40,209 nucleotides of DNA from an uncultured Acidipila sp. (GCA_937859835.1 CALMAN010000117.1:1-40209), one strand, 5' to 3'. Shown: positions 5,781-33,176, counted from the first letter of the stretch. The notes: generated by a model from the letters alone, not told the origin. Numbers and translations are program-made.

Positions 5781-7758
<1,978 letters not shown>

Positions 7759-7769
<11 letters not shown>

Positions 7770-17196: not shown

Positions 17197-18276
17197 TTAG
17201 GGCGCGGCTTCCCGCGCCAGCAGTTTGCGCTTGCGCTCAACGCCCCAGCGATACCCACACAGGTCGCCATCCCTGCGCACGACGCGATGGCACGGGATGG
17301 CGACGGCCAGCCGGTTTGCAGCACAGGCCCGTGCGACGGCGCGTACCGCCCCGGGCATCCCGACGGCCTTGGCGATCGCTGTGTAGCTCGCGGTCGTGCC
17401 TGGGGGGAGCAAACGCAGTGCCTGCCAGACCCGCTGTTGGAAAGCGGTGCCCCGGATGTCGAGGGGAAGACTGATCCCGGTGGCCGGCGCTTCGACCAGG
17501 GCCACCACCATCGCCACCTGCTGCTCGAAGACCGGGTCCTGCCCCACCAGTTCGGCTTGTGGAAAGCGGTCCTTAAGTTCGCGCAGGAGCTGCTCAGGAT
17601 CATCGCCGAGCGAGATGGCACAGATGCCCGCCCCGCTTTGTGCCACCAGGATTGAACCCAGGCTGCACTTGCCCAGGGCGAAGCGAATCGATTCGCCGCT
17701 GCCGCCCTTGCGAAAGGCGGAAGGGGACATGCCGAGCACCTGTCGCGAGGCAGCGTAGAAGCGCCCCCCAGAGTTGTAGCCGGCCTCGTACAAGGCTTCC
17801 GTCACCGTAGGGCTGCTGCGCAAAGCCTGCTGCACCGCCTGCTTGCGGTGGGCCGCTACATACGCCTTTGGCGTAAGCCCGGTTGCAGCGCGGAAGACCC
17901 GGTGGAAGTGGGAGCTGCTCATGGCTGCGGCCGCTGCCAGTGCTGCAAGCCCCGGCTCTTCTTCAGCAGCCTCGATCCGGCGGCAAGCCTCGGCGACAAG
18001 GGCCGCGTGCCGCTGCGCCAAGGGAGGCCGGTTCGGGATGCAGCGCCGGCAGGGCCGGAACCCGGCGCGCTCTGCGTCGGCCGCGCTGGCATGGAAGCGG
18101 ACGTTTTCCGGACGCGGCCGCCGGGCCGCGCAGCTTGGCCGGCAGTACACGCCCGTGCTTTCTACCGAGAAAAAGAAGGCGTCGTCGGCCGCGGGATCGC
18201 GCGCCATGATCAAAGCCCAGCGGGGGTCGCCCGTGATGGAGATGGACGGCTGCTTGGGAGTGGTTGAGCGTTTCAT
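17197..18276 (-). CDS. ada: Bifunctional Ada: methylphosphotriester acceptor, AraC-type HTH, O6-methylguanine methyltransferase
   Basis: A 359-residue three-part Ada. The N-terminal zinc domain has Cys45, Cys49, Cys76 and Cys79. Their spacing (4, 27, 3) equals that of E. coli Ada C38/C42/C69/C72, where the first Cys takes methyl from phosphotriesters and turns Ada into an activator. Next is an AraC-type helix-turn-helix (about residues 90-190). The C-terminal methyltransferase domain ends with the active-site motif AIPCHRVVRRDG (Cys329) and GYRWGVERKRKLL. The ATG at 18276 follows GGGGA; the open frame extends to 18480 without similarity. It is divergent from the photolyase gene across 402 bases, in which I could not recognise an Ada box. 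Confidence 0.95.
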   Translation of the reverse strand: MKRSTTPKQPSISITGDPRWALIMARDPAADDAFFFSVESTGVYCRPSCAARRPRPENVRFHASAADAERAGFRPCRRCIPNRPPLAQRHAALVAEACRRIEAAEEEPGLAALAAAAAMSSSHFHRVFRAATGLTPKAYVAAHRKQAVQQALRSSPTVTEALYEAGYNSGGRFYAASRQVLGMSPSAFRKGGSGESIRFALGKCSLGSILVAQSGAGICAISLGDDPEQLLRELKDRFPQAELVGQDPVFEQQVAMVVALVEAPATGISLPLDIRGTAFQQRVWQALRLLPPGTTASYTAIAKAVGMPGAVRAVARACAANRLAVAIPCHRVVRRDGDLCGYRWGVERKRKLLAREAAP

Positions 18277-18678: not shown

Positions 18679-20373
18679 ATGTCCTCATTCGCACAGGAGA
18701 TTGCGCGCGCAGCCCCGTCGGTTGCGGACGCCAAGCAGCGGCGCTGGATCTATGTGCCCTACGATCGGCTGACCGATGCCGCCGGTCCGCTGAGCGAGAC
18801 CGCACCCGAGCAAGCCGGCATCGTCATGGTAGAAGCGCTTGCCAAGGCCCGGCGCCGGCCCTACCACAAGAAAAAGCTGGTACTCATCCTCGCAAGCCAG
18901 CGCCATTTCGCGCTTGAGCAGGCCGCGCGCGGAGTCAGCGTGGCCTACATGCTCACGCCCGGCATCTTTGCCGATGGCCTGGAGCTGGCACGGCAACGCT
19001 ACGGTTTGTCGCGCTTCACGATGATGGAGCCGGCCGAGCGGGAGATGCGGCTCGACATGGATGAGGCAGTGCGGCGAGGCGTGGCCATCGAGCAGGCGCC
19101 CGACCGCACCTGGCTGTCGACCGATGAGGATTGGGAGCGCGTGTTCGGCAAGCAAGGGCCGGAACCGGTGAGCAAGCACCACCTCATGGACCGTTTTTAC
19201 CGCTTTCTGCGCGAGAAGACCGGCTACCTGATGCGCGACGGCAAACCGGAGGGCGGCCAGTTTTCCTTTGACGCTGAAAACCGTCAGCCCTACAAAGGGG
19301 TGCCGCTGGTGCCGCGCCGCCCGGCCTACCCTCCGGACGAGATCACTGGGGAAGCAATCGAGCTTGTTGAGCGCGAGTTCCCGCGCCACTTTGGGAATAC
19401 AGCAGGTTGGAACCTGCCCGTGCGGCGCGAGGACATCGACGCCGCCTGGAAGTGGAGCCTCGAGAACCTGCTGCCGATCTTTGGGCCGTACGAAGACGCC
19501 ATGTGGACGCGCGAGCCGGACATGTTCCATAGCAAAATGTCCGCCTTTCTCAACATCAGCCGGTTGCTGCCTGGCCGCGTCGTCGCCGACCTGGTGGAAG
19601 CAGCCGGCAAGGGGTTGATCCCGCTCGCAAGCGCGGAAGGCTTTCTGCGGCAGATCCTGGGCTGGCGCGAGTTCATGCGCCACATGCACCGGATTACCGA
19701 TGGCTTTCGCAACATTGCTGCTCCGGTCGAGCCCCCGAGAGCGCCCGCATCTGGACCAGTGCAAACGCGAGCCATGGAGCAGCAGGAGGAGCTCACGGCG
19801 CCCGATGCCGGCGCGCGCCCGTCCGCCCTCGGAGCATCGCTGCCCCTGCCCGCGGCGTACTGGGGTACCCCTTCCGGGCTGAACTGTCTTGACACGGTGG
19901 TGCGCCAGGTGCTCGATGAGGGCTGGTCGCACCACATCAACCGCCTCATGGTTCTGAGCAACTTCGCCACGCTGTGCGGCTACTCGCCGCGCGAGCTGAC
20001 GGACTGGTTCTGGGTCGGCTACATCGATGCCTACGACTGGGTCGTTGAGCCAAATGTGTTGGGGATGAGCACCTATGCAGACGGCGGGCTGACCGCGACC
20101 AAGCCGTACGTGAGCGGCGCGGCCTATATCAACCGCATGAGCGATTACTGCGGCAGGTGCCAATACAACCCCAAGCTTGCAACCGGTCCGGAGTCATGCC
20201 CCTACACGGCCTTGTACTGGACCTTTCTTGAGCGCAACGAAGCTGCCCTGGCCCGCAACCCTCGCCTGCGAATGCCCTACAACACGCTCTACAAAAAAAG
20301 TGCTGCCGAGCGGCTTGCCTTGCGCGAGCGCGCGGATGCGTGTGTGACGGAGCTGGGCAAAGCTACGTACTAG
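18679..20373 (+). CDS. Iron-sulfur bacterial cryptochrome/photolyase, (6-4) photolyase-like
   Basis: A 564-residue member of the FeS-BCP/CryPro branch (prototype Agrobacterium PhrB, a (6-4) photolyase with FAD, a lumazine antenna and a [4Fe-4S] cluster). The four cluster Cys are Cys403, Cys491, Cys494 and Cys507; their spacing (88, 3, 13) is the same as PhrB C350/C438/C441/C454. Family landmarks include MDRFYRFLREKTGYLM, GWREFMRHMH, GWSHHINRLMVLSNFATLCGYSPRELTDWFW, and VEPNVLGMSTYADGG before the FAD/cluster region. A Pro/Ala/Gln-rich insertion at about residues 348-395 lies between GWREFMRH and the first cluster Cys, making the protein longer than PhrB. The ATG at 18679 is the chosen start. 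Pairing with ada suggests a DNA-damage reversal cluster. Confidence 0.92.
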   Translation: MSSFAQEIARAAPSVADAKQRRWIYVPYDRLTDAAGPLSETAPEQAGIVMVEALAKARRRPYHKKKLVLILASQRHFALEQAARGVSVAYMLTPGIFADGLELARQRYGLSRFTMMEPAEREMRLDMDEAVRRGVAIEQAPDRTWLSTDEDWERVFGKQGPEPVSKHHLMDRFYRFLREKTGYLMRDGKPEGGQFSFDAENRQPYKGVPLVPRRPAYPPDEITGEAIELVEREFPRHFGNTAGWNLPVRREDIDAAWKWSLENLLPIFGPYEDAMWTREPDMFHSKMSAFLNISRLLPGRVVADLVEAAGKGLIPLASAEGFLRQILGWREFMRHMHRITDGFRNIAAPVEPPRAPASGPVQTRAMEQQEELTAPDAGARPSALGASLPLPAAYWGTPSGLNCLDTVVRQVLDEGWSHHINRLMVLSNFATLCGYSPRELTDWFWVGYIDAYDWVVEPNVLGMSTYADGGLTATKPYVSGAAYINRMSDYCGRCQYNPKLATGPESCPYTALYWTFLERNEAALARNPRLRMPYNTLYKKSAAERLALRERADACVTELGKATY

Positions 20374-20432
20374 CTCGCCGGAGGCTTCGGGGGGACCGGC
20401 AGCCTGTACCGGGGAATGCTACAAAGGATTGC

Positions 20433-21731
20433 GTGGAAAAAGATATTGTGATCATCGGCGCGGGGCTGGCCGGCATGCGCTGTGCCGAGTTGCTGCAGCA
20501 GGCTGGCTTTGAAACGCTGGTTCTGGAGGCCGCGGACGCGCCGGGTGGCCGTGTGCGCACCGACCTGGTCGATGGTTTCCGGCTCGATCGCGGCTTTCAG
20601 ATCCTGTTGACGGCCTACCCGGAAACCAAAGCAGTGCTAAGCTACCGGGCCTTGAAGCTGCGGAAGTTCATACCCGGCGCGCTGGTCTGGTATGGCGGTC
20701 GCTTTCACCGCTTTTCTGACCCGCGTCGCGAGCCGCTGCGGGCAGGGCGCTTCTTGTTTGATGATGTCATCCGCTTCGGCGATAAGTGGCGGGTCGCGGC
20801 TTTGGCCGCACGCGTCAACCGCGGCGACCCCGCCATGCTCTTTCATCGTAAAGACGAGTCGACGCACGCGTTTCTGCGGCAGTTCGGCTTTTCTCCCAAG
20901 ATGATCAACCGGTTCTTTGCGCCTTTCTTCGGCGGTGTCTTTCTAGAAAGCGAGCTGCAAACCTCGGCGCGCTACTTCGAGTTTCTCTTCCGCATGTTCG
21001 CGGACGGTTCGGCAGCGGTCCCGGCCGAAGGCATGGAGCGCATCCCGCAGCAGATGGCTGCGAAGCTGGCGCCCGGCACGCTGCAACTGAACACCCGGGT
21101 TACCGAGGTGAGCCGCCGCCAGCAGCGCTTTCTGGTAAGCACCGACAGCAGCGGCACCATTGAAGCCAAACAGCTGGTTTTTGCCGTTGCCGAACATGCA
21201 CTCGGGCCTTTGCTGGCCGGCCTTCTACCCCACACCCGTACGCAGGCAAGGGAGCGGCGTTTGTGGAACCGCACCACCACGATCTACTATGCCGCGCCGC
21301 GTTCGCCGATCGCAGGACCCATCCTGGCCCTCAATGGCGAGGGGCCGGATGGGGGGCCCATCAACAATCTTGCCGTGATGAGCCAGGTTTCCAAACGCTA
21401 CGCGCCGCCGGGGCAGGAGCTGATCGCGGTCAGCATCGTGGGCGTGGCTCCCGGAGACGACGCAACCATGCAGGCGCTGGAAGAAAGGGTACGCGAGCAC
21501 GCGGAGCGCTGGTTCGGCGCCGAAGCCGTGGAGCAGTGGCGATTGGTGGGCGCTTACCCCATCGAGCATGCTTTGCCCCTGGCCCGCACCACGCAGTGGG
21601 AAAGCAGCGCGACGCGGGTGACCGACAATGTGTACATGTGTTCTGACGCGCAGGAAACGCCGTCTCTGCAGGGCGCCCTCGCGTCCGGCCGGCGCGCTGC
21701 CGAAGCCATTCTTGCGCAACGGGGCGCCTAG
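20433..21731 (+). CDS. FAD-dependent amine oxidase/phytoene desaturase-like oxidoreductase
   Basis: A 432-residue flavoprotein. The dinucleotide-binding motif IVIIGAGLAGMRCAELL is at the N-terminus, followed by LEAADAPGGRVRTD (the GGR motif of flavin amine oxidases and carotenoid desaturases) and a C-terminal FAD-binding stretch VYMCSDAQETPSLQGALASGRRAAEAI. The substrate cannot be deduced; relatives are usually annotated 'NAD(P)/FAD-dependent oxidoreductase'. The GTG at 20433 is chosen because AAAGGA lies five bases upstream and the binding fold starts at once; the frame is open up to 20340, overlapping the photolyase. The 59-base gap suggests co-transcription with the photolyase. Confidence 0.88.
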   Translation: MEKDIVIIGAGLAGMRCAELLQQAGFETLVLEAADAPGGRVRTDLVDGFRLDRGFQILLTAYPETKAVLSYRALKLRKFIPGALVWYGGRFHRFSDPRREPLRAGRFLFDDVIRFGDKWRVAALAARVNRGDPAMLFHRKDESTHAFLRQFGFSPKMINRFFAPFFGGVFLESELQTSARYFEFLFRMFADGSAAVPAEGMERIPQQMAAKLAPGTLQLNTRVTEVSRRQQRFLVSTDSSGTIEAKQLVFAVAEHALGPLLAGLLPHTRTQARERRLWNRTTTIYYAAPRSPIAGPILALNGEGPDGGPINNLAVMSQVSKRYAPPGQELIAVSIVGVAPGDDATMQALEERVREHAERWFGAEAVEQWRLVGAYPIEHALPLARTTQWESSATRVTDNVYMCSDAQETPSLQGALASGRRAAEAILAQRGA

Positions 21732-21958: not shown

Positions 21959-23050
21959 CTACTCATACGAGAGTGCTTCAATGGCATCCTGTTTCGTGGC
22001 CTTGATCGCTGGCGCGGTCACCCCGAGCAACGCCCCAACGATCGCAATGCAGCCGGCAATCGGCCACCAGCGGTACACCGTCTCCTGGATCAGGCTGGCC
22101 GGGCCTGCGTGGCGCAGCAGCCACTGCGACCCGTATGTCAGCAGGATGCCGACTACGGTTCCAAGCGCGGCCAGCAGGAAAGTCTCCCGAAAAAGCAGGT
22201 TGATGATGTAACCCGAAGAGGCTCCCAGTGACTTCAGGATCCCTATCTCACGGGTTCGCTCCAGCACCGCGGTGTACATAGCCATAAAAACAACAAGGAA
22301 GCCGACAACAGTGGCCAGCCCAATGACCACGGCGATGAAGCTTCGCAGCAGGCCGACGCTGTTGATCGAGAGCAGGGAAGTAAACTCCTCGATGCTGTAG
22401 ACCGGGTAGCCGGGAAGCTTTGCGCGGATCGCACTCAGTACAGACTGGATCTGACTCTGGTTATCTACCTTGACGTAGATCTGGCTAAGATGGCGCGGAC
22501 TGCCGACTAACTCCTGCAAAACAGGAAGCGGAAGACAGATGCGGGCCAGCTTGCCGGACTCAAAAATCCCGGCCACGCGCCAGTCGTGATTGATCAGGTG
22601 TACCGACTGACCGACGCGCAAGTGCTTCTCACGGGCGTAGTATTCATCGATAAGGATGTCCTGGTCAGAGCGAAATGGACCGCCCGCGAGATAGTGGAAG
22701 CCCCCGCTCATCTTTGTAAACTGCGCAAGATCCATGCCGGTGATGGAGTCGAGGCCAGTGAGTGGCTGGACTACCGTGCCTGTGACGAGCGCGACATGCG
22801 GCTGCTTCATCAGTAAAGCCAGAAGCGATTCGGGCATAGGCGCTGTACTGAGTCCGATGATCGACGAACCTGGAGGCCGGATCATGATGTCGGCGCCGAC
22901 TCCCCGAGCGCGCCGCGCTGCTCCGTCCAGCGTGCCGTAGCTGAGACCCACGATCGTCAGGATCATGGTGACTTCGACAGCGATCGCGAGCACGCTTAGG
23001 ATGGTACGCACCGGCCGAAAGCCGATGTTCGAGAGAACGAGTTTATTCAT
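21959..23050 (-). CDS. FtsX-like ABC transporter permease (MacB/LolCE type)
   Basis: A 363-residue permease with the MacB/FtsX plan: one N-terminal helix (RTILSVLAIAVEVTMILTIVGLSYG), a large periplasmic domain (about residues 50-230), then three C-terminal helices with the family motif LERTREIGILKSLGAS. Such permeases work with a cytosolic ATPase to move lipids, lipoproteins or peptides; none is encoded beside it. The start is placed at ATG 23050 (MNKLVLSNIGFRPVRT), where family similarity begins; an ATG at 23107 adds 19 residues. Neither has a clear Shine-Dalgarno site. It lies 79 bases after the activase gene on the same strand, so it is probably the last gene of that operon. Confidence 0.85.
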   Translation of the reverse strand: MNKLVLSNIGFRPVRTILSVLAIAVEVTMILTIVGLSYGTLDGAARRARGVGADIMIRPPGSSIIGLSTAPMPESLLALLMKQPHVALVTGTVVQPLTGLDSITGMDLAQFTKMSGGFHYLAGGPFRSDQDILIDEYYAREKHLRVGQSVHLINHDWRVAGIFESGKLARICLPLPVLQELVGSPRHLSQIYVKVDNQSQIQSVLSAIRAKLPGYPVYSIEEFTSLLSINSVGLLRSFIAVVIGLATVVGFLVVFMAMYTAVLERTREIGILKSLGASSGYIINLLFRETFLLAALGTVVGILLTYGSQWLLRHAGPASLIQETVYRWWPIAGCIAIVGALLGVTAPAIKATKQDAIEALSYE

Positions 23051-23129
23051 GAGAGAAACAGAGAAGGGTGTGGGCAGGTGCGCTGCCCACACGGGCTTTT
23101 CGCTCATTCAGAACGCAACGGCAGCGCAC

Positions 23130-26100
23130 TTAGTCCCCGTAAGCTGCTTCGAGTGTCTGCTCCGGCAGAACGCCGGCTCGAAGCTGCTGCTCATAGGCGG
23201 CCAGCTCTTGCTCGATCCGCTCGGACGCAATCCTCCGCTGAATAATGTCTTCGCGGTAGCGCCGCAGGAAGTAGTCGATGGTCTCGACGCGGATGCGGAT
23301 CGAACCGGAAGGCTTGTTTTCGTCCAGGTCTTTAAACGAGAAGTAAGGGGTTCCGGAGCTTTCGATAATCCCTTCGATCACGCCATAGATAGGCGCGTCG
23401 TGTCCGCACTTAAAGCTCGACATCTCCAACGCAACAAGGTTCGGGTGGCGAGCCGTGAACTTTGCCGCCCACACCTTGTGGTTCGTGCTGGTCGAGTAGC
23501 GATTCTTCCACACGTCGGCGATGTCCAGCGGATGCTGGATCAGGCCGGCGCGTACATCATCGCCAAACAACCGCTCCAGCAGGTCCTCATCATAGGGCAA
23601 AGTGCTCTGCGAAAAGATGGGGTAGCCCAGCTTCTGAAACTCTTCCAGGATCTCATGGTTGAGACCAGGATCGTGGTGGTAAACGCGGCCCAGCATCACG
23701 ATGCCGATGCGATCTTCGCGTTCAAGCTGATCAAGCGTCCTTCGCGCATCCCCGCGTATCTTTGCTTCACACGCCCGCAGCGCTTTAAACGCGACCTCTA
23801 CAGCGCGGGCGTTCTCCTCGCGACCAAGCCCGAGCAGGGGCGACCAGGCTTCGTACATCTGATCGGCACAGATCCGCTCGTCGCGGAAGTTCATAATCGG
23901 GTCCAGATAGGCAATCCCGTTCTCGCTGAAAAGATCGCTTTCCTTGGTGAAGGCAGCCTTCACCGCATTCGGTGTCGCCGTCACGGTGGGGCAAGCATTC
24001 GATCCGGTAAGGTTTACGAGCGGCGTACTGAGAATGTCGTACATCGGAAAGAAGATCGCGTGGAGCGGCTTCTTGGCGTGCGCCACCGCAAGGAGGTTAT
24101 ACACGTGTGCGATGCCTATCTTCGAGGGATAACAAGGGTCGATCGCGCCGCGGCTTGCACCGGCGCGATACAGTTCCGGCGTCGTGTAATCGGAGTACAC
24201 GATGTTCTCCTGCGCAAGACCGAGCGAAGCAAAGTAGGCGTTGAAAAACGGTGCGTACTCGTAGGTATTCAAGAGGCGCGGCAGTCCTACGCGAAACTCC
24301 TTGCGCCGCGCATGGAGCGCGGCCCGTTCCTTGACGCTTCTGGATACAAAGATGCCCTTGACGCTTGGCGTCGGGTCGGCAACCACTTCGACCTTGCGAT
24401 ACCGGAACACGTCGCGCGCGGCGACGTCCACGTAGTTGGGGTTCTTCTCCATGACCGCGTCCAGGCCGGCCTTGATGTCTTTCATGTCTGCGACATCTTC
24501 GACCGTGCCCTTCTCACAAGTGGCGATGATCAGCCGCTGCTCGCCCATTCGTAGCGGAACCTTTGTTTTTTTCTCCTGGAAGTCGACCGGCTTTGGCAGG
24601 GACAGAAAAGCGCCCGACCCCGCTGCTTTGATCTGGATCAACGGCTCCACCTTTGCCTTCAGCGGCGATGCCGTTGAGCAGGAGCCGCCGTGTTCATGGG
24701 TGTGTTGGTCCAGGTGCGCCTCAATGGTTTCGAGGCTTGGCAGCGCCGCGGGCACGCTCGCCGCCACCGTAGCCACATGCTTATGGGTTCCATCCGCGTG
24801 CGCCGACTGCTCGACTGTTACTCTTTCCCCGTTGACGTCGACATCGATAAAGGTCCGGAGACAGTTGTTCTTGCAAAAGTAGCAGCGCGTGTCCTCATTG
24901 CGCGTAGTGCGATAGCGTATCTTCGCGACTGCGTCCGTGCCGATGAAGCTTGTCTGCCGCCCGTTGGTCCACAGCCGCAGCGCTTCCTGCGCCGCGCCGA
25001 TCGCGCCCGACTCGCCGCAGTGCTCGTGGATGATGATCTCAGGCTCTTTCCCTGACGCTTTAAAGCTTTGCCGGATGAAGTCGACCTCGGCTTTCACGAC
25101 AGCCAGATTGTTTTGCGTGCCTCCCTGCAGAACAAAGCGGGTGCCCAGCGCAGAAAGGTTTGGGATGCTGGCGACATAGAGAAAGACATTCTTCGGCAGC
25201 ACCGCGGCCAGACCCGCCAGGATCTCCTCCGCGCGCCAGCCCTGGCGCTGGAAGTTGACGATGTCCGACTGCATAAACACAGCGCAACCGTAACCAAAGA
25301 CCGGCATGGATTTGGCCGCAAAGGCCAGGTCGGAGTACTGCTCCACCTTAAGCCCGAACCCTTCAACCGTAGACTGCAGGAAATATCCGTTGCCCGCTGA
25401 GCATTGTGTATTGAGCTTGAAGTCTTTGACGCGACCATTCTTGAGCACGATGAGCTTGATGTCCTGGCCGCCCACATCCACGATCACGTGCGGGTCGTCG
25501 TAGAACTTCAACGCCGACTCAGTATGCGCGACCGTCTCGACCAGCGCCACATCCGCGCTTAGTACGTCACGCAGGATGTCCTTCGCATAGCCGGTGGTCC
25601 CGACCCCCAGCACTTCCATGCTGGCTCCGGCGCCCTCAATCTGCCCGCGCAGTTTTTCAAACATCTCGATCGTGTCCTGGATCGGGTTGCCATTTGAAAG
25701 CTGATAGGCCTTGCACAGGATGTCGCCTTGCTCATCGAGCAGTACGGCCTTTGTGGAAGTGGAGCCCCCATCAATGCCGACAAAGCCCCGCACCGTCGAC
25801 CCTGGTTGAAAGGTAGCCGGGACGAAGCGCTTCTTGCTGTACTCAAATTGAAACGTCGCGAGCTCGGTAGGGTTCTCGACCAGGCCCTTGCCGCCCGCTG
25901 CGGCCTTTTCCTCGCTCCGTCCAAAGTCGATGTAGTACTTCAGCTTTTCTGTGCCGGTGTACTGACCAATCTCCTCGTCCTCGTCGCGGCCGAACTCGAC
26001 TGCGCCGAGCGCAGCGAAATACTGCGAGTTTTCTGGGACCTTGATCAGCTCCTCAGCTTTCACTCCTTCGGGGAGCTCGACCTTGCGCTCCTTCCACATG

Positions 26101-26828
26101 CGCGGAATATTTGCCTGCCAGGCTTCGCGCATGCCGCGGATAAAGCCGTTTGGGCCGCCCAGCAGCAGGACGTGCGGGCGCAGCGTGTGCCCGCGCGTCA
26201 GCACGCTCAGGTTCTGGAGCACGATGGCCTCGAAGAGCGAGGCCATGAGTTCGTCGGGCGGGGTGCCGGTTTTTTGCAGGCCGTTGATGTCGGTCTCCGC
26301 GAAGACGCCGCACTTCCCAGCTACCTTGTGTAACTTGACGCCGTGATACGCGAGCGCGGATAACTCCTGCGCCGGGATGCGCAGCTTGGCATTGATCTTG
26401 TCGATCACCGCGCCGGTGCCGCCCGCGCACTTATCGTTCATGGACGGTATCTTCTTCTTGCGGCCGGTTTCTTCATCATCCTTGAAGACAATGATCTTCG
26501 CGTCCTGGCCGCCAAGCTCGATCACGGAGTACACCTCCGGATGCAGCTTCTCGACCGCGAGCGAAACAGCATGCACCTCCTGCACGAACTTCGCACCCAG
26601 CAGGTCGCACAGCGTGCCGCCGCCTGAGCCGGTAATAAACATCCTTGTGTTTCCCGCCGCCGCGCCGGCTTCCTCGCGCATGCGGTCGAGAAACTCGAGC
26701 ACCTTCTCCGGCTGACGCGTGTCATGTCGCTGGTAGTCCTGCCACACAACCTGATCCGTAGCCCGGTCCACCACGATCGCTTTCACCGTGGTGGAGCCGA
26801 CATCGAGCCCAACGAAAAACTTCTGCAT
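23130..26828 (-). CDS. Double BadF/HgdC-type activase fused to a DUF2229-like region (acyl-CoA dehydratase activase-related)
   Basis: A 1232-residue protein with two complete ASKHA ATPase modules of the BadFG/BcrAD/HgdC type. Module 1 (about 5-280) has GLDVGSTTVKAIVV, IELGGQDAKII and cluster Cys134 and Cys173. Module 2 (about 348-620) has GIDGGSTSTKAVLL, VDVGGQDIKLI and cluster Cys476 and Cys515. In both the Cys are 39 apart, as in HgdC (C127/C166), where two subunits share one [4Fe-4S] cluster. Then come CYFCKNNC (649-656), a His-rich linker (about 680-720) and a DUF2229-like/HgdB-related part (about 845 onward). HgdC-type activases push electrons at very low potential, at the cost of ATP, into dehydratases or reductases. 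The domain set resembles clostridial PlsA. ATG 26828 follows GGGAG at nine bases. Confidence 0.88.
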   Translation of the reverse strand: MQKFFVGLDVGSTTVKAIVVDRATDQVVWQDYQRHDTRQPEKVLEFLDRMREEAGAAAGNTRMFITGSGGGTLCDLLGAKFVQEVHAVSLAVEKLHPEVYSVIELGGQDAKIIVFKDDEETGRKKKIPSMNDKCAGGTGAVIDKINAKLRIPAQELSALAYHGVKLHKVAGKCGVFAETDINGLQKTGTPPDELMASLFEAIVLQNLSVLTRGHTLRPHVLLLGGPNGFIRGMREAWQANIPRMWKERKVELPEGVKAEELIKVPENSQYFAALGAVEFGRDEDEEIGQYTGTEKLKYYIDFGRSEEKAAAGGKGLVENPTELATFQFEYSKKRFVPATFQPGSTVRGFVGIDGGSTSTKAVLLDEQGDILCKAYQLSNGNPIQDTIEMFEKLRGQIEGAGASMEVLGVGTTGYAKDILRDVLSADVALVETVAHTESALKFYDDPHVIVDVGGQDIKLIVLKNGRVKDFKLNTQCSAGNGYFLQSTVEGFGLKVEQYSDLAFAAKSMPVFGYGCAVFMQSDIVNFQRQGWRAEEILAGLAAVLPKNVFLYVASIPNLSALGTRFVLQGGTQNNLAVVKAEVDFIRQSFKASGKEPEIIIHEHCGESGAIGAAQEALRLWTNGRQTSFIGTDAVAKIRYRTTRNEDTRCYFCKNNCLRTFIDVDVNGERVTVEQSAHADGTHKHVATVAASVPAALPSLETIEAHLDQHTHEHGGSCSTASPLKAKVEPLIQIKAAGSGAFLSLPKPVDFQEKKTKVPLRMGEQRLIIATCEKGTVEDVADMKDIKAGLDAVMEKNPNYVDVAARDVFRYRKVEVVADPTPSVKGIFVSRSVKERAALHARRKEFRVGLPRLLNTYEYAPFFNAYFASLGLAQENIVYSDYTTPELYRAGASRGAIDPCYPSKIGIAHVYNLLAVAHAKKPLHAIFFPMYDILSTPLVNLTGSNACPTVTATPNAVKAAFTKESDLFSENGIAYLDPIMNFRDERICADQMYEAWSPLLGLGREENARAVEVAFKALRACEAKIRGDARRTLDQLEREDRIGIVMLGRVYHHDPGLNHEILEEFQKLGYPIFSQSTLPYDEDLLERLFGDDVRAGLIQHPLDIADVWKNRYSTSTNHKVWAAKFTARHPNLVALEMSSFKCGHDAPIYGVIEGIIESSGTPYFSFKDLDENKPSGSIRIRVETIDYFLRRYREDIIQRRIASERIEQELAAYEQQLRAGVLPEQTLEAAYGD

Positions 26829-26893
26829 GAGGGGTGTCTCCCGGGTTATGTGTCCCGCTGTGCAGCGACTCTGGCGATCACGGCGCCGCCAAG

Positions 26894-28678
26894 TTACAGC
26901 ATGGCTGCGACGCGCGTCCGCGAACGCAGCCACCGGCGCTCGTCCTTGTGCATGCGGTCGTGCAGGTGCGAGGCAAACTGCGCCGCCGTTCCTGCCACGC
27001 CGGGCTTGTGGGGCACCTTGTAAAGCGCGCGCCGCGTTTCCGGGTGTGCAGCCACATACTCGCGCAGCTCTTCCAGGCTGCGACCGGTCTTCGCGAGCAC
27101 GCTTTCAAACTCCGAGCGGGCCCGGCTCTTGGCTTCTGCGAGCGACATCTGCACCCGGCTGTGCGCATTCACCTCGCCCTCGCCCGAGGTTTCGATGGGA
27201 AGAAAGATCATGTCTTTGTAGCGGTTCACCACGCGCGACTGCACGCCGTCGGACTGCGAACTCGGCATGCACCCAAACGGCTTGAGCGCAAGCACCATGT
27301 GGCACAGGTGATTGACGGTGTAGTAGATATTCTTTCCTACTTCCATGTGCCCTTCACCGCCCCGCGCTAACTGGTGGTAAAACGGGTGCGCCAGCTCGGC
27401 TATCTCTTCCTGAGGGATGAGTTGGTGAGTCAGTCCGCCCAGATGCTTGATAGTGCGGTGATAGAAGTACGTCCACATCGAACTGCCTACAGACAAGCCA
27501 GCCGTTTTCTTGAACAGGCCAAACTCGTTCGCCGCCAGCTTCCTGGCCTCGAACCACTTGACGTCCTTATTCAAGGTCTCCGCCTTATAGCGTGCGCGCG
27601 CTCCTTCGCGGGCCACATACATCATGTAATCGATCCAGGTCGCGATCGGCTCGATTAACACCTGTGCGCCTTCGCGCTCTAGAAAGGCGAACATGTTGAA
27701 GTTGCCGTCGCCCTCGGTGGTCTGCGCCCAGAATTCGCCCGTGATCTTGATCACCGGTTTAACACGCAGGCGGTCCACCTCGACCGCGTCGATCTGGTCG
27801 CGACAGGTGTGCAGCGCGTCCACATACTCCTTACCGTAAAGGTTGTGCGCCACCTTACCCAGCGTGCACAGGATGCCTGAAACCTTTGGCTTGCTGTCGA
27901 GCAAGGGGTGCAGCCACGCCGGCGAGGCATCCCGGATGTGCCAGCGCTTGCGCTCGCGCAAGGTACTGGTCATCAGCTTTACCGCATCGCCGATCACACG
28001 GTCCGTCTCGCCCTTGTTGATCTCGAAAGGCCGGACCTGGTACACCATGTCGTTGATCACGTCGCCCAGATTGAGTGCGTTCAGCATACCCATGCCGAAG
28101 TCGACCGAGAACTTGAGCCCCGGCTCGCCGCTTGCCGCCTTGATGCCGTCGGTCTGCTGAAACAGCAAGACGCGAAAGCCCTCGAAGCCGGCGTTGCCCA
28201 GCGCGAAGCGGTACTCGGCCTCATACATCCCGAACCGGCACGGTCCGCAGGAGCCCGCCGTAAAGAAGATGTAGTTGTCGATGATCTGCTGCCGCGTCAG
28301 CCCTTCGCGTTCCAGCTTCTGCAGGTACTGCACCAGGTTCCCGACCGTGAAGTAAGTCGGGTTACACTGCCCGTTGTTGCCAAACTCCTTGCCGGCCTGG
28401 AAGTCGGAAACGTTGGGCGTGGGGATGTTCTCGCACTTATACCCCGAGCCGTGGAAAACCGACTTGATCATCTCCTCATGCTTCCAGGTGAGCCCGCCGA
28501 AAAGGATCGTGACATAGTCGCGCTCCGATCCGACAAAGGTGCGCTCCACCGGCTTTTTGAACTCGCGCAGGCGTGCCAGCCCTGCTTCGGCCCGCAGCCG
28601 CGCGCGTTCTGCATCGATCCGGGCCTGGATCTCTAGGTCAAACTCCGCCTGTTTGCGATCTTGCTCCACCACCGGCAT
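26894..28678 (-). CDS. 2-hydroxyacyl-CoA dehydratase (HgdB/BcrC-like) component
   Basis: A 594-residue protein of the benzoyl-CoA reductase/2-hydroxyglutaryl-CoA dehydratase subunit type, the expected electron acceptor of the activase encoded next. A basic, coiled N-terminus (about 1-45) leads into the catalytic-type region with candidate cluster ligands: Cys105 in GNNGQCNPTYF and Cys144/Cys147 in FTAGSCGPCRFGMYEAEY. Further landmarks are LLFQQTDGI, FGMGMLNALNLGDV and MPSSQSDGVQS. The family takes one-electron radical chemistry to acyl-CoA or, in PlsA relatives, to lipid esters; the true substrate here is unknown. The ATG at 28678 has GGGAG seven bases upstream, preferred to the GTG at 28681. 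It lies 64 bases after the radical SAM gene and 65 before the activase gene. Confidence 0.85.
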   Translation of the reverse strand: MPVVEQDRKQAEFDLEIQARIDAERARLRAEAGLARLREFKKPVERTFVGSERDYVTILFGGLTWKHEEMIKSVFHGSGYKCENIPTPNVSDFQAGKEFGNNGQCNPTYFTVGNLVQYLQKLEREGLTRQQIIDNYIFFTAGSCGPCRFGMYEAEYRFALGNAGFEGFRVLLFQQTDGIKAASGEPGLKFSVDFGMGMLNALNLGDVINDMVYQVRPFEINKGETDRVIGDAVKLMTSTLRERKRWHIRDASPAWLHPLLDSKPKVSGILCTLGKVAHNLYGKEYVDALHTCRDQIDAVEVDRLRVKPVIKITGEFWAQTTEGDGNFNMFAFLEREGAQVLIEPIATWIDYMMYVAREGARARYKAETLNKDVKWFEARKLAANEFGLFKKTAGLSVGSSMWTYFYHRTIKHLGGLTHQLIPQEEIAELAHPFYHQLARGGEGHMEVGKNIYYTVNHLCHMVLALKPFGCMPSSQSDGVQSRVVNRYKDMIFLPIETSGEGEVNAHSRVQMSLAEAKSRARSEFESVLAKTGRSLEELREYVAAHPETRRALYKVPHKPGVAGTAAQFASHLHDRMHKDERRWLRSRTRVAAML

Positions 28679-28706
28679 CACGTGTCTCCCAAGTAAGAGT
28701 GGGTTG

Positions 28707-28722
28707 TGCCGGCTGCCCGGCA
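28707..28722 (-). other. Small hairpin between the radical SAM and HgdB-like genes
   Basis: TGCCGG and CCGGCA form a perfect six-base stem with a four-base loop, 20 bases after the radical SAM stop. No T tract follows. It could be an mRNA processing or stability element; a chance hairpin is possible at this GC content. Confidence 0.35.
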
Positions 28723-28742
28723 GGTTAGTCGCTGGGCTTGAC

Positions 28743-30035
28743 TTACATCTGACCCTTCATGCCCTGGAATCCATGTGCGAGCTGCTTGAAGAAGTACTTG
28801 ATGACGCGCTGGTCGTTGTAGCACCAGCCAAGGATGTGGTTGAGGGTCGAAAAGCAGTGGGTCTGGCAGGTCTGCTTCTGCGTATCCAGCTGCTTGGTAT
28901 CAAATTTATGGTCGCCCACGACGCCCCAGTCGTAGTTCGCCGTGTACATCGGGAAGCAGGGAGCCAGGGAGCCATCCACGCGGATGATCATCGAGTTCTG
29001 CCCGGCCCGGCAGTTCCAGGGGAAATGGTTTCCTTTCATAAAGTCCACCATCTGCCACAGCCGCGCGTTTGAGTTGACCATCTTATAACCGGAGTCCTGC
29101 TTTTCGGTCAACCATTGAATGGTTTCCTCGACGAGCGGCCAGTCCTGCCTGCGGATATAGGTCTCGTTTTCGTTTTCGTCGGCGTGCTTGAAGTGGTCAT
29201 CCTGCTCGAGCAGAGGCGACTCATTGATGTGGTAGTCAGTCGCGATCCCGTTGCTGTGCGCGATCTCGGTCAGCTCGCGCACGTCGTCCAGATTGTTGCG
29301 GCAGATGTTGATGTTCAAGAACACCGAGTAGCCGTAGCCGAACTGTTTCCGCACCAGGTAATCGAACTGCTTGCGGATGGGCGCCAGGGCCTTCGGGAGG
29401 CTCTTCTTGAGCTCCACCGTGTCGACCGCAATGTTGAAGGTGGACAGCCCTGCATCGGCCAGCTTGTCGATAACATCGGTCCGAAGCAGCCGCGCATTGG
29501 TCGGCAGATAGATCCAGAAGCCCTTCTTTGCAGCGTAGTGGGTGATGCGATGGATGAGGTCCGGACGCAGCAGCGGCTCGCCGCCCATGTAGGCCAGCAC
29601 CCGGCAACCCGTGCCGTGCAGCCAATCTATGGAACGCTTGGCCACGTCCTCGGTCATGCCTTTGACCTTGTTATCGAAAGCCCAGCAGTAATGGCAGTCG
29701 AGATTGCACTTGAACTCGGTAAACAGGTAAGCAATCAGCGGATGGAAATCCCCGGCTGTGACGCGCGACCGGATGTAGGGGAACAACCATCCGCGCATGG
29801 CGTGGTAGATCTGCGGCGGCGACCAGTGGCGCTTTTCGGGCGGCGACCAGGGCGCATCAAAGTCGACCGGGCCGAGCAAAGCAGGCTGCTCAGGGTAGAC
29901 GGGATCTGGGAATCGCTGCAGCTCACCAGCCGGCTGGTAGCGCGGAGCGGGACCAGGCTGCTGGGTCAGCAGCGTGTGAAGCGGGACATCGAGACGAAAC
30001 CGCTGCGGCTCGCCTGACTGTATTTCCTCAAGCAT
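28743..30035 (-). CDS. Radical SAM protein with Cys-rich SPASM-like C-terminus
   Basis: A 430-residue radical SAM enzyme. After an N-terminal extension of about 95 residues comes the cluster motif CNLDCHYCW (Cys110, Cys114, Cys117), then GGEPLLRPD (the SAM-binding GGE motif, 151-153), a TIM-barrel-like body, and a C-terminal Cys set: Cys342, Cys360, Cys390, Cys394 and Cys405. That set suggests one or more auxiliary iron-sulfur clusters, as in SPASM/twitch proteins. There is no B12-binding domain, and no small peptide substrate gene is evident nearby, which speaks against peptide maturation. Position ahead of the HgdB-like and activase genes suggests a shared pathway, perhaps lipid modification. 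The ATG at 30035 follows GGGAGG at about seven bases; the open frame reaches 30215 without similarity. Confidence 0.87.
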   Translation of the reverse strand: MLEEIQSGEPQRFRLDVPLHTLLTQQPGPAPRYQPAGELQRFPDPVYPEQPALLGPVDFDAPWSPPEKRHWSPPQIYHAMRGWLFPYIRSRVTAGDFHPLIAYLFTEFKCNLDCHYCWAFDNKVKGMTEDVAKRSIDWLHGTGCRVLAYMGGEPLLRPDLIHRITHYAAKKGFWIYLPTNARLLRTDVIDKLADAGLSTFNIAVDTVELKKSLPKALAPIRKQFDYLVRKQFGYGYSVFLNINICRNNLDDVRELTEIAHSNGIATDYHINESPLLEQDDHFKHADENENETYIRRQDWPLVEETIQWLTEKQDSGYKMVNSNARLWQMVDFMKGNHFPWNCRAGQNSMIIRVDGSLAPCFPMYTANYDWGVVGDHKFDTKQLDTQKQTCQTHCFSTLNHILGWCYNDQRVIKYFFKQLAHGFQGMKGQM

Positions 30036-30505
30036 CTTCAACCTCCCGAGGGGTTTGCGGGAAACTGTCCTCAAACGCGCGCGGGAGAAAGCCCCCGAAG
30101 AAACGCTGAGATCTGCCTGGCATGCATTTTTTCGTGCTTCGTGATCGAACCTGTCACGATTCCGCAACAACGTAACACACGAATTGGGCGTGTGTTGGTC
30201 AGGAAAGCAACACATTTACGGTTGTGACAGATTTTTCTAATTGCTCCTAAGTAAGCGGAGCGAGCGATGCAGAGCAGCGACGCGAAGTCGCAAAAGTATT
30301 TCCGGCAAGCGACCTTTGCGAAACGTTCTGCTCCCCCGAAACCCCGGCCACTTACTCGCGATTTGTTTGCGGCTTGTTCCACAGCAGCAGCGACGCCCGG
30401 GGAAGGCGAGCCTAAGGGAGCTGCGCCACCCCCATCCTCCCAGCAGGGGCGCTCTGCTACACTCGTCACGGTCAGCGCCCGGTGGCTTGGAGGAATGGAG
30501 ACAAA
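30036..30505. promoter_or_regulatory. Divergent regulatory region with nested inverted repeats
   Basis: 470 bases between the radical SAM and rsbR-like start codons, locally more AT-rich at 30115-30250. It holds two nested inverted repeats: inner AACACACG (30174-30181) and CGTGTGTT (30189-30196) with a seven-base spacer; outer CTGTCAC (30151-30157) and GTGACAG (30224-30230). These look like dimer-type operator sites shared by both divergent operons. I could not assign promoter boxes with confidence. Short open frames here show no protein similarity. Confidence 0.55.
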
Positions 30506-31384
30506 ATGACGAGCTTACTCGCATCCTTGCAGGAAAACCGCGACGCCATCCTGAAGGATTGGACCCAGCAGCTGCGAACCACCCTGCAGCGGCGCGACCT
30601 GCTCAACGTGGGTGAGCTGGAGTCGCAGGCCGCCGAGATGTTAGCGGCGATCCTGCAGGTGGGACCGGCTACCAAGCTCGAGGAGTTCGGCGCCCCGGCG
30701 TGGCGGCCTGTCAAGGATCTCGTGGCCAGCCTTTCCGCTTCCCGCGCCGCGCTGGGCTTTACGCCTTCCGAAACGGCGCTCTTCGTGCTTTCGCTCAAGC
30801 CCGCCATCTTTACACAGATCCGGGGTAAGTGGGGCAACGACGGCGACCGGCTGTTTTCTGAGATTTCGGCTGCGGACGGGTTTCTCGATAAGCTTGCCCT
30901 GCACACCACGGACAGCTACATCCATGGCCGTGACCAGTTGATTGCGCGCCAGCAGGAAGACATGCTCGAGCTGTCAACGCCTGTGGTCACCCTGTGGGAC
31001 GGGATCGTCGCCCTGCCGCTGATCGGCACCCTGGACAGCGCCCGCACGCAGGTCGTGATGGAATCGCTGCTGCAGGCGATCGTGCAAACCAGCTCACGCT
31101 ACGCCATCATCGACATCACCGGCGTCCCCACCGTCGACACGCTTGTCGCCCAGCACCTCTTGAAAACCATTACGGCGGCTCGGTTGATGGGAGCCGAGTG
31201 CATTCTGAGCGGGATTCGCCCGCAGATTGCGCAAACCATCGTGCACCTGGGCATCAACCTCCAGGACATTGTGACCAAGGCCAAGCTGGCCGACGCGTTT
31301 CGCATGGCGCTGGAAGCGAGCGGCCGCAAGGTGGTCCGGGCTGAGCGTTCCGCGCCCGCGGACAGCGCGCAGCGGGCGCTCTGA
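30506..31384 (+). CDS. rsbR: RsbR-like stressosome protein with STAS domain
   Basis: A 292-residue RsbR paralogue, the sensory scaffold of the stressosome. The all-helical N-terminal part (about 1-145) resembles the RsbRD-type sensor domain rather than the globin fold of Bacillus RsbRA. The C-terminal STAS domain (about 155-275) starts with LELSTPVVTLWDGIVALPLIGTLDSAR and includes IDITGVPTVDTLVAQHL. By the 34-residue spacing of the two phospho-Thr in B. subtilis RsbRA (T171/T205), the equivalents here look like Ser178 and Thr212. The ATG at 30506 is chosen for GGAG six bases upstream. Its stop overlaps the rsbS start by one base (ATGATGG-type junction TGATG). Confidence 0.9.
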   Translation: MTSLLASLQENRDAILKDWTQQLRTTLQRRDLLNVGELESQAAEMLAAILQVGPATKLEEFGAPAWRPVKDLVASLSASRAALGFTPSETALFVLSLKPAIFTQIRGKWGNDGDRLFSEISAADGFLDKLALHTTDSYIHGRDQLIARQQEDMLELSTPVVTLWDGIVALPLIGTLDSARTQVVMESLLQAIVQTSSRYAIIDITGVPTVDTLVAQHLLKTITAARLMGAECILSGIRPQIAQTIVHLGINLQDIVTKAKLADAFRMALEASGRKVVRAERSAPADSAQRAL

Positions 31385-31785
31385 TGGAACGCATCCCGAT
31401 CCTGCGCATCGGCACCTACCTGCTGGTCACCATTCAGGTAGATATGCACGATCAGCTCGCCTTGACCCTCCAAACGGACCTGACCGACCGCATCGCCGAG
31501 GTCGGCGCCCGCGGCGTGCTGATCGACATTTCCGCGCTTGAAATCGTTGACTCCTATATCGGGCGAACCCTGGCCAACATCGCCTCCATGGCGCGCGTCC
31601 TGGACGCGGCCACGGTGGTCGTCGGCATGCAACCGGCCGTGGCCATCACCCTGGTCGAGCTGGGCATGACGCTTCCGGGCATCCATACCGCCATGGACGT
31701 CGACTCCGGGATGCAGTTTCTCCGCCGCAGCGTGAGAGATGCGGAGGATCCTGATGATTGGCGCCGGAATAGTACTGAAGAGTGA
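31384..31785 (+). CDS. rsbS: RsbS-like STAS antagonist
   Basis: A 133-residue single STAS domain: PILRIGTYLLVTIQVDMHDQLA at the N-terminus, then GVLIDISALEIVDSYIGRTLANIA. The Ser in VDSYIGR (Ser57) matches the phosphorylated Ser59 of B. subtilis RsbS. RsbS holds RsbT in the stressosome until RsbT phosphorylates it. The gene starts at the stop of rsbR (one-base overlap), and its end overlaps the rsbT start by 32 bases, so the three products should be made in fixed ratio. The tail (EDPDDWRRNSTEE) is longer than usual and is partly dictated by that overlap. Confidence 0.93.
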   Translation: MERIPILRIGTYLLVTIQVDMHDQLALTLQTDLTDRIAEVGARGVLIDISALEIVDSYIGRTLANIASMARVLDAATVVVGMQPAVAITLVELGMTLPGIHTAMDVDSGMQFLRRSVRDAEDPDDWRRNSTEE

Positions 31786-32170
31786 AACTGTTCCCATCCA
31801 AACCTCCGGGGATGTGGTGCTGGTGCGCCAGCGAGTCAGGGCGTGTGCGGTCGAGCACCGGTTCACCATCGTGGAGCAGACCAAGATCGTGACGGCCGCG
31901 AGCGAGCTGGCACGGAACACGCTGGAGCACGGGTTGGGTGGCTCGGTCGACCTGGAGGTGCTCAAGGATGGCGGGCGCCTTGGCATCCGGCTCCGCTTTC
32001 AGGACCGGGGGCCCGGGATTGCCAACATCGCGCTTGCCCTGACCGACGGGTACAGTTCCGGCAAAGGGCTAGGGCTGGGGCTTGGAGGAAGCAAGCGCTT
32101 GGTGCACGAGTTTGAAATCGAGTCCAGCCCGAGCGCCGGCGCCACGGTCACGGTGGTGCGATGGAAGTGA
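31754..32170 (+). CDS. rsbT: RsbT-like serine/threonine kinase
   Basis: A 138-residue GHKL-type ATPase/kinase. The N-box is ASELARNTLEHG (Asn55), the G1 box DRGPGI (Asp84) and the G2 box GKGLGLGLGGSKRL, with VHEFEIES after it; all are typical of RsbT. It phosphorylates RsbS and RsbR and, once freed, activates a downstream partner (RsbU in Bacillus). No RsbU or sigma-B gene is present here; the partner is likely one of the next genes. The ATG at 31754 is preceded by GGAGG at six bases, preferred to the frame's earlier ATG at 31739. It overlaps the next gene by 10 bases. Confidence 0.93.
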   Translation: MIGAGIVLKSETVPIQTSGDVVLVRQRVRACAVEHRFTIVEQTKIVTAASELARNTLEHGLGGSVDLEVLKDGGRLGIRLRFQDRGPGIANIALALTDGYSSGKGLGLGLGGSKRLVHEFEIESSPSAGATVTVVRWK

Positions 32171-33174
32171 CCGGGATGGTAAGCCGCGTCATCCGCGCGA
32201 AAGCCGGGGACCAGAGCGAGGTGGGCAATGCGCGCCGCCAAGCGCTTTCGCTCGGATCGGCGCTCGACTTTACCGAGGTTCGCTGCGCCGAGCTCGGCAT
32301 CGTGGTGACCGAAGCAGCCCGGAACCTGGCAGCCCACGGCGGAGGCGGCGAGCTTCTGCTGACGCCCTGGAAGTTTCAGGACGCAGCCGGCGTGGATGTG
32401 CTCGCGCTCGATACCGGGGTCGGCATCCGCGATATGGCCAAGGTTCTTGAGGACGGCTACTCGACCGGCGGGACCCCGGGAACCGGCCTGGGCGCGATCG
32501 CAAGGCTGGCCGACTCGTTTGAGCTTTTCTCGCAGCCAGAAAAGGGAACGGCCTTGTTCGCGCGGCTGCTTCGGGCTGAAAAGGCCCGGGCTCCGCAGCC
32601 GCCACGATGGGGCTCGCTCGGGGTGCCGTTTGGAGGGGAAACTGTGTCCGGCGATGCGTGGGGCGTCAGCCTTGCCGAGGGCCGCGCTGTGTATGCGATG
32701 GCGGACGGTCTCGGCCACGGCTCGCTGGCCGAAGAAGCAGCCCGGGAAGCGATGCGCGCCTTTCACAGCAATGCTCATCTGCCGCCGACGCAGATCCTGC
32801 TGGCCATCCACGCCGCGCTCCAAAAGACCCGGGGAGCCGCGATCGGCATCGCGGAAGTCCCGAACGAGGGTAATCAGCTCATCTACACCGGTTCCGGTAA
32901 TATCACAGCATCTGTTTACTGCGCCGGACACATGAGGAGCATGGTGTCAATGAACGGTACGCCGGGCCACAACATAGGCCCACTGCAGGAGTTCACCTAC
33001 CCCTTGCGTGAAGGATCCACGTTGTTGATGCACAGCGACGGGCTCCAACCCCGGTGGAACCTGGCGGCCTACCCCAGCCTCGCTGCACGGCATCCTGGCT
33101 TGATTGCCGGCGTGTTGTACCGGGACTTCAGCAGAAGACGCGACGACTCCACCGTGCTCGTCGCCAGACTGTAG
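32161..33174 (+). CDS. RsbT-like ATPase domain fused to RsbX/SpoIIE-type PP2C phosphatase
   Basis: A 337-residue fusion. Residues 1-135 are a second GHKL domain of the RsbT kind: N-box EAARNLAAHG (Asn55), G1 DTGVGI (Asp84) and a shortened G2 GTPGTGLGAIARL. Residues 145-337 are a SpoIIE/PP2C phosphatase with metal-binding positions in SGDAWG (Asp165), MADGLGHG (Asp182), HSDGLQPRW (Asp293) and RRRDDSTVL (Asp328/Asp329). RsbX-type phosphatases reset the stressosome by removing phosphate from RsbS and RsbR. Joining it to a kinase-like domain could target it to RsbS or make a two-way switch. The start overlaps the rsbT stop (ATG at 32161; a second ATG at 32176). The stop is two bases before the next gene. 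Confidence 0.9.
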   Translation: MEVTGMVSRVIRAKAGDQSEVGNARRQALSLGSALDFTEVRCAELGIVVTEAARNLAAHGGGGELLLTPWKFQDAAGVDVLALDTGVGIRDMAKVLEDGYSTGGTPGTGLGAIARLADSFELFSQPEKGTALFARLLRAEKARAPQPPRWGSLGVPFGGETVSGDAWGVSLAEGRAVYAMADGLGHGSLAEEAAREAMRAFHSNAHLPPTQILLAIHAALQKTRGAAIGIAEVPNEGNQLIYTGSGNITASVYCAGHMRSMVSMNGTPGHNIGPLQEFTYPLREGSTLLMHSDGLQPRWNLAAYPSLAARHPGLIAGVLYRDFSRRRDDSTVLVARL

Positions 33175-33176
33175 CC

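Follow-up and report, generated by a model that had tools for sequence, protein, structure and literature searches.

Which reaction is carried out by three adjacent genes of an uncultured Acidipila sp., encoding a radical S-adenosylmethionine (SAM) protein, an HgdB-like protein and a double activase with a DUF2229 domain, and does it belong to lipid metabolism? The biosynthetic route to the ether and membrane-spanning lipids of soil acidobacteria, on which the temperature record of branched glycerol dialkyl glycerol tetraethers (brGDGTs) rests, is unsettled, and an original prediction made from the DNA alone had placed this locus within it, as reducing an ester-bound lipid to an ether and/or coupling acyl tails. 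Here, "the window" is the whole stretch analysed (40,209 nucleotides; GCA_937859835.1, CALMAN010000117.1:1-40209), taken from a draft genome of 3.13 Mb (95.6% complete) of the Acidobacteriaceae type, with Edaphobacter and Granulicella as nearest named relatives. Sequence comparison indicates that the activase and the HgdB-like protein form an ATP-driven reductase of the PlsA/Ger (glycerol ester reductase) family, in a clade of its own that we call type B, and that the radical SAM protein is its specific but optional, dedicated partner. Tentatively, we read the locus as a type-B reductase and a radical SAM enzyme of the same pathway, acting most likely on an envelope lipid or a lipid-linked molecule.

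The three genes are read from the minus strand in the order radical SAM, HgdB-like and activase, with intergenic gaps of 64 and 65 bases, and Pfam assigned two BcrAD_BadFG domains (PF01869, 8e-70) and one DUF2229 (PF09989, 1e-43) to the largest protein and Radical_SAM to the first one, both the layout and the domain content being as originally described. All three open reading frames were scored as coding by a codon model, a partly circular result since the model was trained on the same family; orthologues of the triad in the closest genomes share 77-85% identity, and 80 related loci, all from Acidobacteriota, hold the HgdB-like gene in 75 cases, the activase in 73 and an adjoining radical SAM gene in 33. 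The triad is thus not a chance arrangement, and the three genes are real and conserved. The promoter scan at the locus gave no signal above chance, and the Rfam scan of the window matched a tRNA only.

The double activase is the sole DUF2229 protein of the host genome. Its two activase domains carry the cysteine pairs C134/C173 and C476/C515, both invariant in the family alignment, the latter aligning with the conserved cysteine pair in the activase structures 1hux and 4eht. The DUF2229 domain sits behind these two domains, as membership of the PlsA/PlsR-Ger family requires, and the protein shares 32% identity over 659 residues with Listeria PlsA (E 2e-89). HMMER found no match for the HgdB-like protein in Pfam, NCBIfam or the PDB (PDB sequence search to E 10). 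A profile of its homologues, compared by hhalign with 22 second reductase domains of PlsA/PlsR type, aligned over 403 columns (100% probability, E 6.5e-40), most of the protein's length, matching C105, C147 and C470 with cysteines of Listeria PlsA and Fusobacterium PlsR. The AlphaFold2 model (predicted local distance difference test, pLDDT, 83) was placed by Foldseek with the double-cubane-cluster protein, BzdNO, MbdON and HadBC (2-hydroxyisocaproyl-CoA dehydratase) as top PDB matches (probability up to 1.00, E about 2e-3). Given this profile comparison and fold, the HgdB/BcrC-like label first given to the protein is right, and C144/C147, together with C105 and C470, are likely Fe-S cluster ligands of the putative reductase.

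Two activases with their cysteine pairs, a DUF2229 and an HgdB-like domain with three matching cysteines thus place the pair within the PlsA/PlsR-Ger family in the broad sense. DUF2229 proteins occur in 38 of the 149 Acidobacteriota genomes of our phylum-wide sample and fall into several types. In type A, an activase-activase-DUF2229 protein (about 1020 residues) is followed by an HgdB-like gene (about 435 residues), or both are fused (about 1400 residues); in type B, to which the window belongs, a longer HgdB-like gene (mostly 550-660 residues) comes first and the activase second. Both types coexist in seven genomes, and 47 of 120 related genomes (104 genera from the family, order and class of the host) carry type B. 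These counts, like those of the radical SAM protein and of the tetraether synthase Tes below, were sorted by frame length and profile score, with statistics that ignore kinship. A tree was built from 48 activase/DUF2229 sequences by a quick method and rooted at the midpoint; its branches are long. In it, type B is a single clade whose stem measures 2.7 changes per site. It adjoins a clade holding Listeria PlsA, Acetoanaerobium, Fusobacterium PlsA-PlsR and some single-chain proteins from acidobacteria, with which it shares the motif CxxCxNxC. The window activase therefore stands in a separate neighbouring clade and not within the PlsA of known plasmalogen makers, as far as such a quick tree with long branches can place it. 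One of the rows, the fragment A_L154, bears the label A but belongs to type B according to the genes around it, and some reference sequences (Listeria, Acetoanaerobium) come from plasmid-labelled records of chromosome size.

The tree, the hhalign comparison and the identity to Listeria PlsA, an organism in which plasmalogens and pls orthologues are documented (PMC9702350), uphold the proposed relatedness to PlsA and to glycerol ester reductase. The suggestion that PlsA-type chemistry is split between two polypeptides holds for the architecture as well, though such a division was already known from the characterised plsA-plsR of C. perfringens (PMC12838417, PMC8788747), and for an acidobacterium, Solibacter usitatus, a pathway of PlsAR plus a radical SAM Tes has been put forward (PMC10087280). 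Like these split genes, and like the single-chain PlsA of Listeria and Enterococcus, the window system combines two activases, DUF2229 and an HgdB-like domain. It differs from PlsA-PlsR in that the reductase gene comes first and not last, in an HgdB-like protein about 160-190 residues longer, in carrying CGPCRFG where the latter has GGGCRATN, and in its long-stem clade with a radical SAM partner. Ger of Thermotogota and Desulfatibacillum alkenivorans likewise has two activases (BB type, tied to alkyl ethers), DUF2229 and an HgdB-like part; known Ger is a PlsA homologue containing both activation domains, to which the window is likened by architecture only, and Ger and PlsA cannot be told apart by sequence alone (PMC13274423). 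Acidobacterial type A (e.g. L133, L134, L135, L138) has the same domains, is also split and sometimes shares a genome with type B, but follows the PlsA-PlsR gene order and co-occurs with true Tes, not with the radical SAM protein of the window. The separate clade, the inverted gene order and the dedicated radical SAM protein are what is new here, though an earlier mention in Sahonero-Canavesi 2022 may exist.

Two offshoots of type B were also observed. A more distant variant (L154; G194, G199, G200, G202, G232, G259) has DUF2229 as a separate gene of about 400 residues behind the double activase, together with a shorter HgdB-like protein (about 507-550 residues). At another locus (L144, genome G143), the type-B activase lacks its first 500 residues and no HgdB-like gene lies near; it looks like a remnant after loss, other sampled members of this genus having no type B.

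The radical SAM protein shows both the CxxxCxxC motif and the C-x(9-15)-G-x4-C signature of SPASM-type enzymes. Its C-terminal cysteines (C342-x12-G-x4-C360, C390, C394 and C405) are conserved in 30 homologues and resemble a SPASM domain, though perhaps not with the full SPASM cluster set, and its structural model (pLDDT 76) found its best Foldseek matches in SuiB, SkfB and BlsE. In the 33 loci with an adjoining radical SAM gene, this gene occupies three positions, before, between or behind the other two, and the adjacent copies form practically one clade, providing 34 of its 35 rows. Type B was present in 35 of the 41 related genomes with this radical SAM protein and in 12 of the 79 others (Fisher p 4e-14, kinship uncorrected); where both occur, the radical SAM gene adjoins type B in 22 genomes and lies in trans in 13. 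The link is weaker across the phylum (6/14 versus 9/135, p 7e-4), and 12 of the 47 type-B genomes have no such protein. The radical SAM protein is thus a partner that is specific yet optional, and the association first noticed in the window is a real one. That the enzyme is instead a maturase, modifying a residue of the reductase and not its substrate, is a quite improbable explanation: the SPASM-type cysteines, the fold matches to the peptide-modifying SuiB and SkfB and the tight co-occurrence would suit it, but those 12 reductases go without this radical SAM protein, and homologues of the latter occur without type B in six genomes (G229, G243, G250, G256, G257 and G078). The contexts of stand-alone radical SAM genes had no shared theme.

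Does this radical SAM protein join lipid tails? Probably not. Tes was rejected as an identity, since the protein reached 34 bits against a cut-off of 450 (NF045702), under the MoaA of the host genome (57 bits), and so was HpnH (TIGR03470, 44.6 bits against a cut-off of 225), the true HpnH lying elsewhere in the host genome (G000:C78). Like Tes/GDGT-MAS and Mss it is a radical SAM enzyme, and archaeal Tes is its best PDB sequence match (E 5e-6, 124 residues); unlike Tes, it lacks conserved cysteines ahead of the radical SAM motif, and its fold is nearer to other SPASM enzymes, Tes ranking only 30th in Foldseek. The complete scenario of the original prediction, with ether lipids made by the pair and acyl tails joined into iso-diabolic acid by the radical SAM enzyme, is consequently highly improbable. 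It could draw on the PDB match and on some overlap between true Tes and this radical SAM type among the relatives (12/41, p 0.002), but enzymes acting on ribosomally synthesized and post-translationally modified peptides and other SPASM enzymes precede Tes in the fold search, and the distribution is at odds with it. Within the phylum-wide sample, the radical SAM protein of the window occurs in 4 of 16 Acidobacteriaceae, whereas iso-diabolic acid was found in all six Edaphobacter strains of one study, at 12-30% of fatty acids (PMC11354219), and 15 of the 16 have another Tes homologue, mostly full-length, of about 315 bits. The latter seems to correspond in level to the homologue with 32% identity reported for Edaphobacter aggregans (PMC8941075). 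The idea that the host genome has no Tes homologue was likewise rejected, a fragment (L199) having been found at the end of contig C65, whose edge appears to cut it.

Whether the pair makes ethers is a separate matter. True Tes (>450 bits) occurs in 11 of the 12 phylum-wide genomes with split type A (p 1e-9; e.g. G111:C21, G067:C24) versus 12 of the 137 others. Among the relatives, Tes showed no excess with type B alone (7/38 versus 11/82, p 0.32), and one family (f63) has Tes, type B and the radical SAM protein together without type A. Since Tes tracks split type A and not type B alone, the split type-A genes look like stronger candidates for the ether formation of brGDGTs in Acidobacteriota; type B may have another lipid as its substrate or work elsewhere. 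Ester-to-ether reduction by type B, by analogy with its relatives, is possible, with a weaker case than first proposed.

A clue to the site of action comes from the neighbourhood. A LolA/RseB-like periplasmic family (weak PF17131) lies inside the cluster in seven loci, at two positions and always with the radical SAM gene, and the place behind the activase is held by an FtsX-like permease in the window and at L019, L021 and L070, giving four loci with an FtsX/LolC-like permease. In the window, this permease is a fourth gene on the same strand, omitted from the original prediction, and it may be functionally linked to the triad. The next conserved neighbour of the triad genes occurs in only 6 of the 80 related loci, no conserved neighbours beyond the LolA-like and FtsX-like genes were found in them, and LolA-like genes found elsewhere had no shared context. 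These neighbours favour an envelope product and are suggestive in this respect.

They also bear on another explanation, which we consider rather unlikely, namely that the substrate reduced or dehydrated by type B is not a lipid (but a coenzyme A (CoA) thioester, a cofactor or a secondary metabolite) and that type B is related to PlsA in structure only. The long stem of the type-B clade, the CoA esters on which other superfamily members act, the matches of the activase domains to benzoyl-CoA reductase models, though below cut-off, and the lack of a conserved lipid gene adjoining type B all speak for it. With 2-hydroxyacyl-CoA dehydratase, benzoyl-CoA reductase and the double-cubane-cluster protein, the window system indeed shares the HgdB/BcrC fold and an HgdC-type activase. 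However, the fused double activase with DUF2229 and an HgdB-like protein is the architecture of PlsA and not of HgdABC or BcrABCD, and the HgdB-like protein has no PF06050 match. Pfam/NCBIfam annotation of the window showed no CoA ligase or oxidation genes and, as originally stated, no CoA-ester, 2-hydroxyacid or aromatic-ring genes near the triad; an HgdABC-type 2-hydroxyacyl-CoA dehydratase was rejected on these grounds. The LolA-like and FtsX-like neighbours, for their part, point to the envelope.

In the HgdC/BcrAD activase and PlsA families, ATP hydrolysis drives single electrons to Fe-S clusters. In the reading we tentatively prefer, in which a type-B reductase has an envelope lipid or a lipid-linked molecule as its substrate, the two activase domains would bind ATP and share one [4Fe-4S] cluster through their paired cysteines, and ATP hydrolysis would send low-potential electrons, one at a time, to the Fe-S clusters in DUF2229 and in the HgdB-like protein, as expected from the family. 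Between them, these two parts would bind the substrate and reduce a carbonyl by way of a ketyl-type radical. Because the nearest characterised relatives reduce a lipid ester, such an ester would be the likeliest carbonyl; the product formed from a membrane glycerolipid ester, or from another lipid-linked envelope molecule, would be an ether, a vinyl ether or some similar reduced group. A second, optional modification of that lipid would be the work of the radical SAM enzyme, and delivery to the outer membrane would in some genomes be served by a LolA-like carrier or an FtsX-like permease.

Several observations weigh against this reading. The long stem of type B allows for a substrate other than that of PlsA; true Tes is found in none of the eight phylum-wide genomes with type B alone; the radical SAM protein is missing from the 12 type-B genomes mentioned above; the LolA-like family, present in 14 of the 149 genomes, is not confined to type-B clusters; and permeases of the FtsX kind are common. 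In addition, the six Edaphobacter strains, which may or may not carry type B, showed no glycerol ethers (PMC11354219). Of the initial proposal, the PlsA/Ger kinship, the split architecture and the radical SAM link stand, and the coupling of tails, by a protein that fails the Tes and HpnH models, is not supported.

Table 1. Features of the window and of related loci (positions in the window unless a locus or contig is named).
Feature	Position	Strand	Basis or remark
Radical SAM protein, 430 residues	28743..30035	-	Pfam PF04055, 6e-17
CNLDCHYC cluster motif (C110, C114, C117)	29685..29708	-	invariant in 30 homologues
HgdB/BcrC/double-cubane-cluster-fold protein, 594 residues, PlsR equivalent	26894..28678	-	hhalign and AlphaFold2/Foldseek
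CGPC motif (C144, C147)	28238..28249	-	invariant in 38 homologues
Double activase with DUF2229, 1232 residues, PlsA equivalent	23130..26828	-	PF01869 twice, PF09989 once
First activase domain, about residues 6-250, C134 and C173	26079..26813	-	second PF01869/TIGR00241 stretch; limits approximate
Second activase domain, residues 350-614, C476 and C515	24987..25781	-	PF01869
DUF2229 domain, residues 846-1075	23604..24293	-	PF09989, 1e-43
FtsX/MacB-like permease, possible fourth operon gene	21959..23107	-	PF02687 and PF12704; 22 bases past the activase gene
LolA-like, between radical SAM and HgdB-like genes	L074:7063-7713, L082:7175-7888, L087:7237-7887
LolA-like, directly behind activase	L020:13808-14533, L022:13741-14544, L027:13666-14511, L028:8001-8753
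Distant type-B variant	L154:2973-7899		DUF2229 as separate gene
Truncated type-B activase	L144:6004-8235		G143:C1
Tes-homologue fragment (L199)	G000:C65:3906-4403		contig edge
Ten-pair hairpin	23068-23092	-	just 3' of activase gene
RsbR-like, STAS, SpoIIE-type phosphatase, two histidine kinases with receiver domains	30482-36772	+	divergent from triad
UvrB, Ada, photolyase-related protein, HpnE-like amine oxidase	5784-7769, 17200-18276, 18679-21731

Other features of the window deserve a brief description. The three genes have a G+C content of 58.6-60.7%, under the window mean of 63.0%. A perfect ten-pair hairpin lies within the start of the FtsX-like frame; the true start of this gene may be located further inside. 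The divergent group of RsbR-like, STAS, phosphatase and kinase genes resembles a stressosome or partner-switching module, and several DNA-damage repair genes (UvrB, Ada, photolyase-related) are clustered in the window.

At the cut-offs usual in homology screens (E below 1e-30, over 30% identity; PMC13274423), the activase of the window counts as a Ger/PlsA match, yet the type-B clade alone does not track Tes. Telling type A, which tracks Tes, from type B, which tracks the radical SAM protein, provides a means, itself testable, of assigning ether-lipid genes within the phylum. Type B would furthermore mark an uncharacterised reductase in more than a third of the related genomes (47/120). A broader prospect, unlikely as it stands, is that of a widespread acidobacterial system in which type B and the radical SAM enzyme would modify one envelope lipid in sequence, giving rise to an undescribed lipid class with LolA/FtsX-type delivery.

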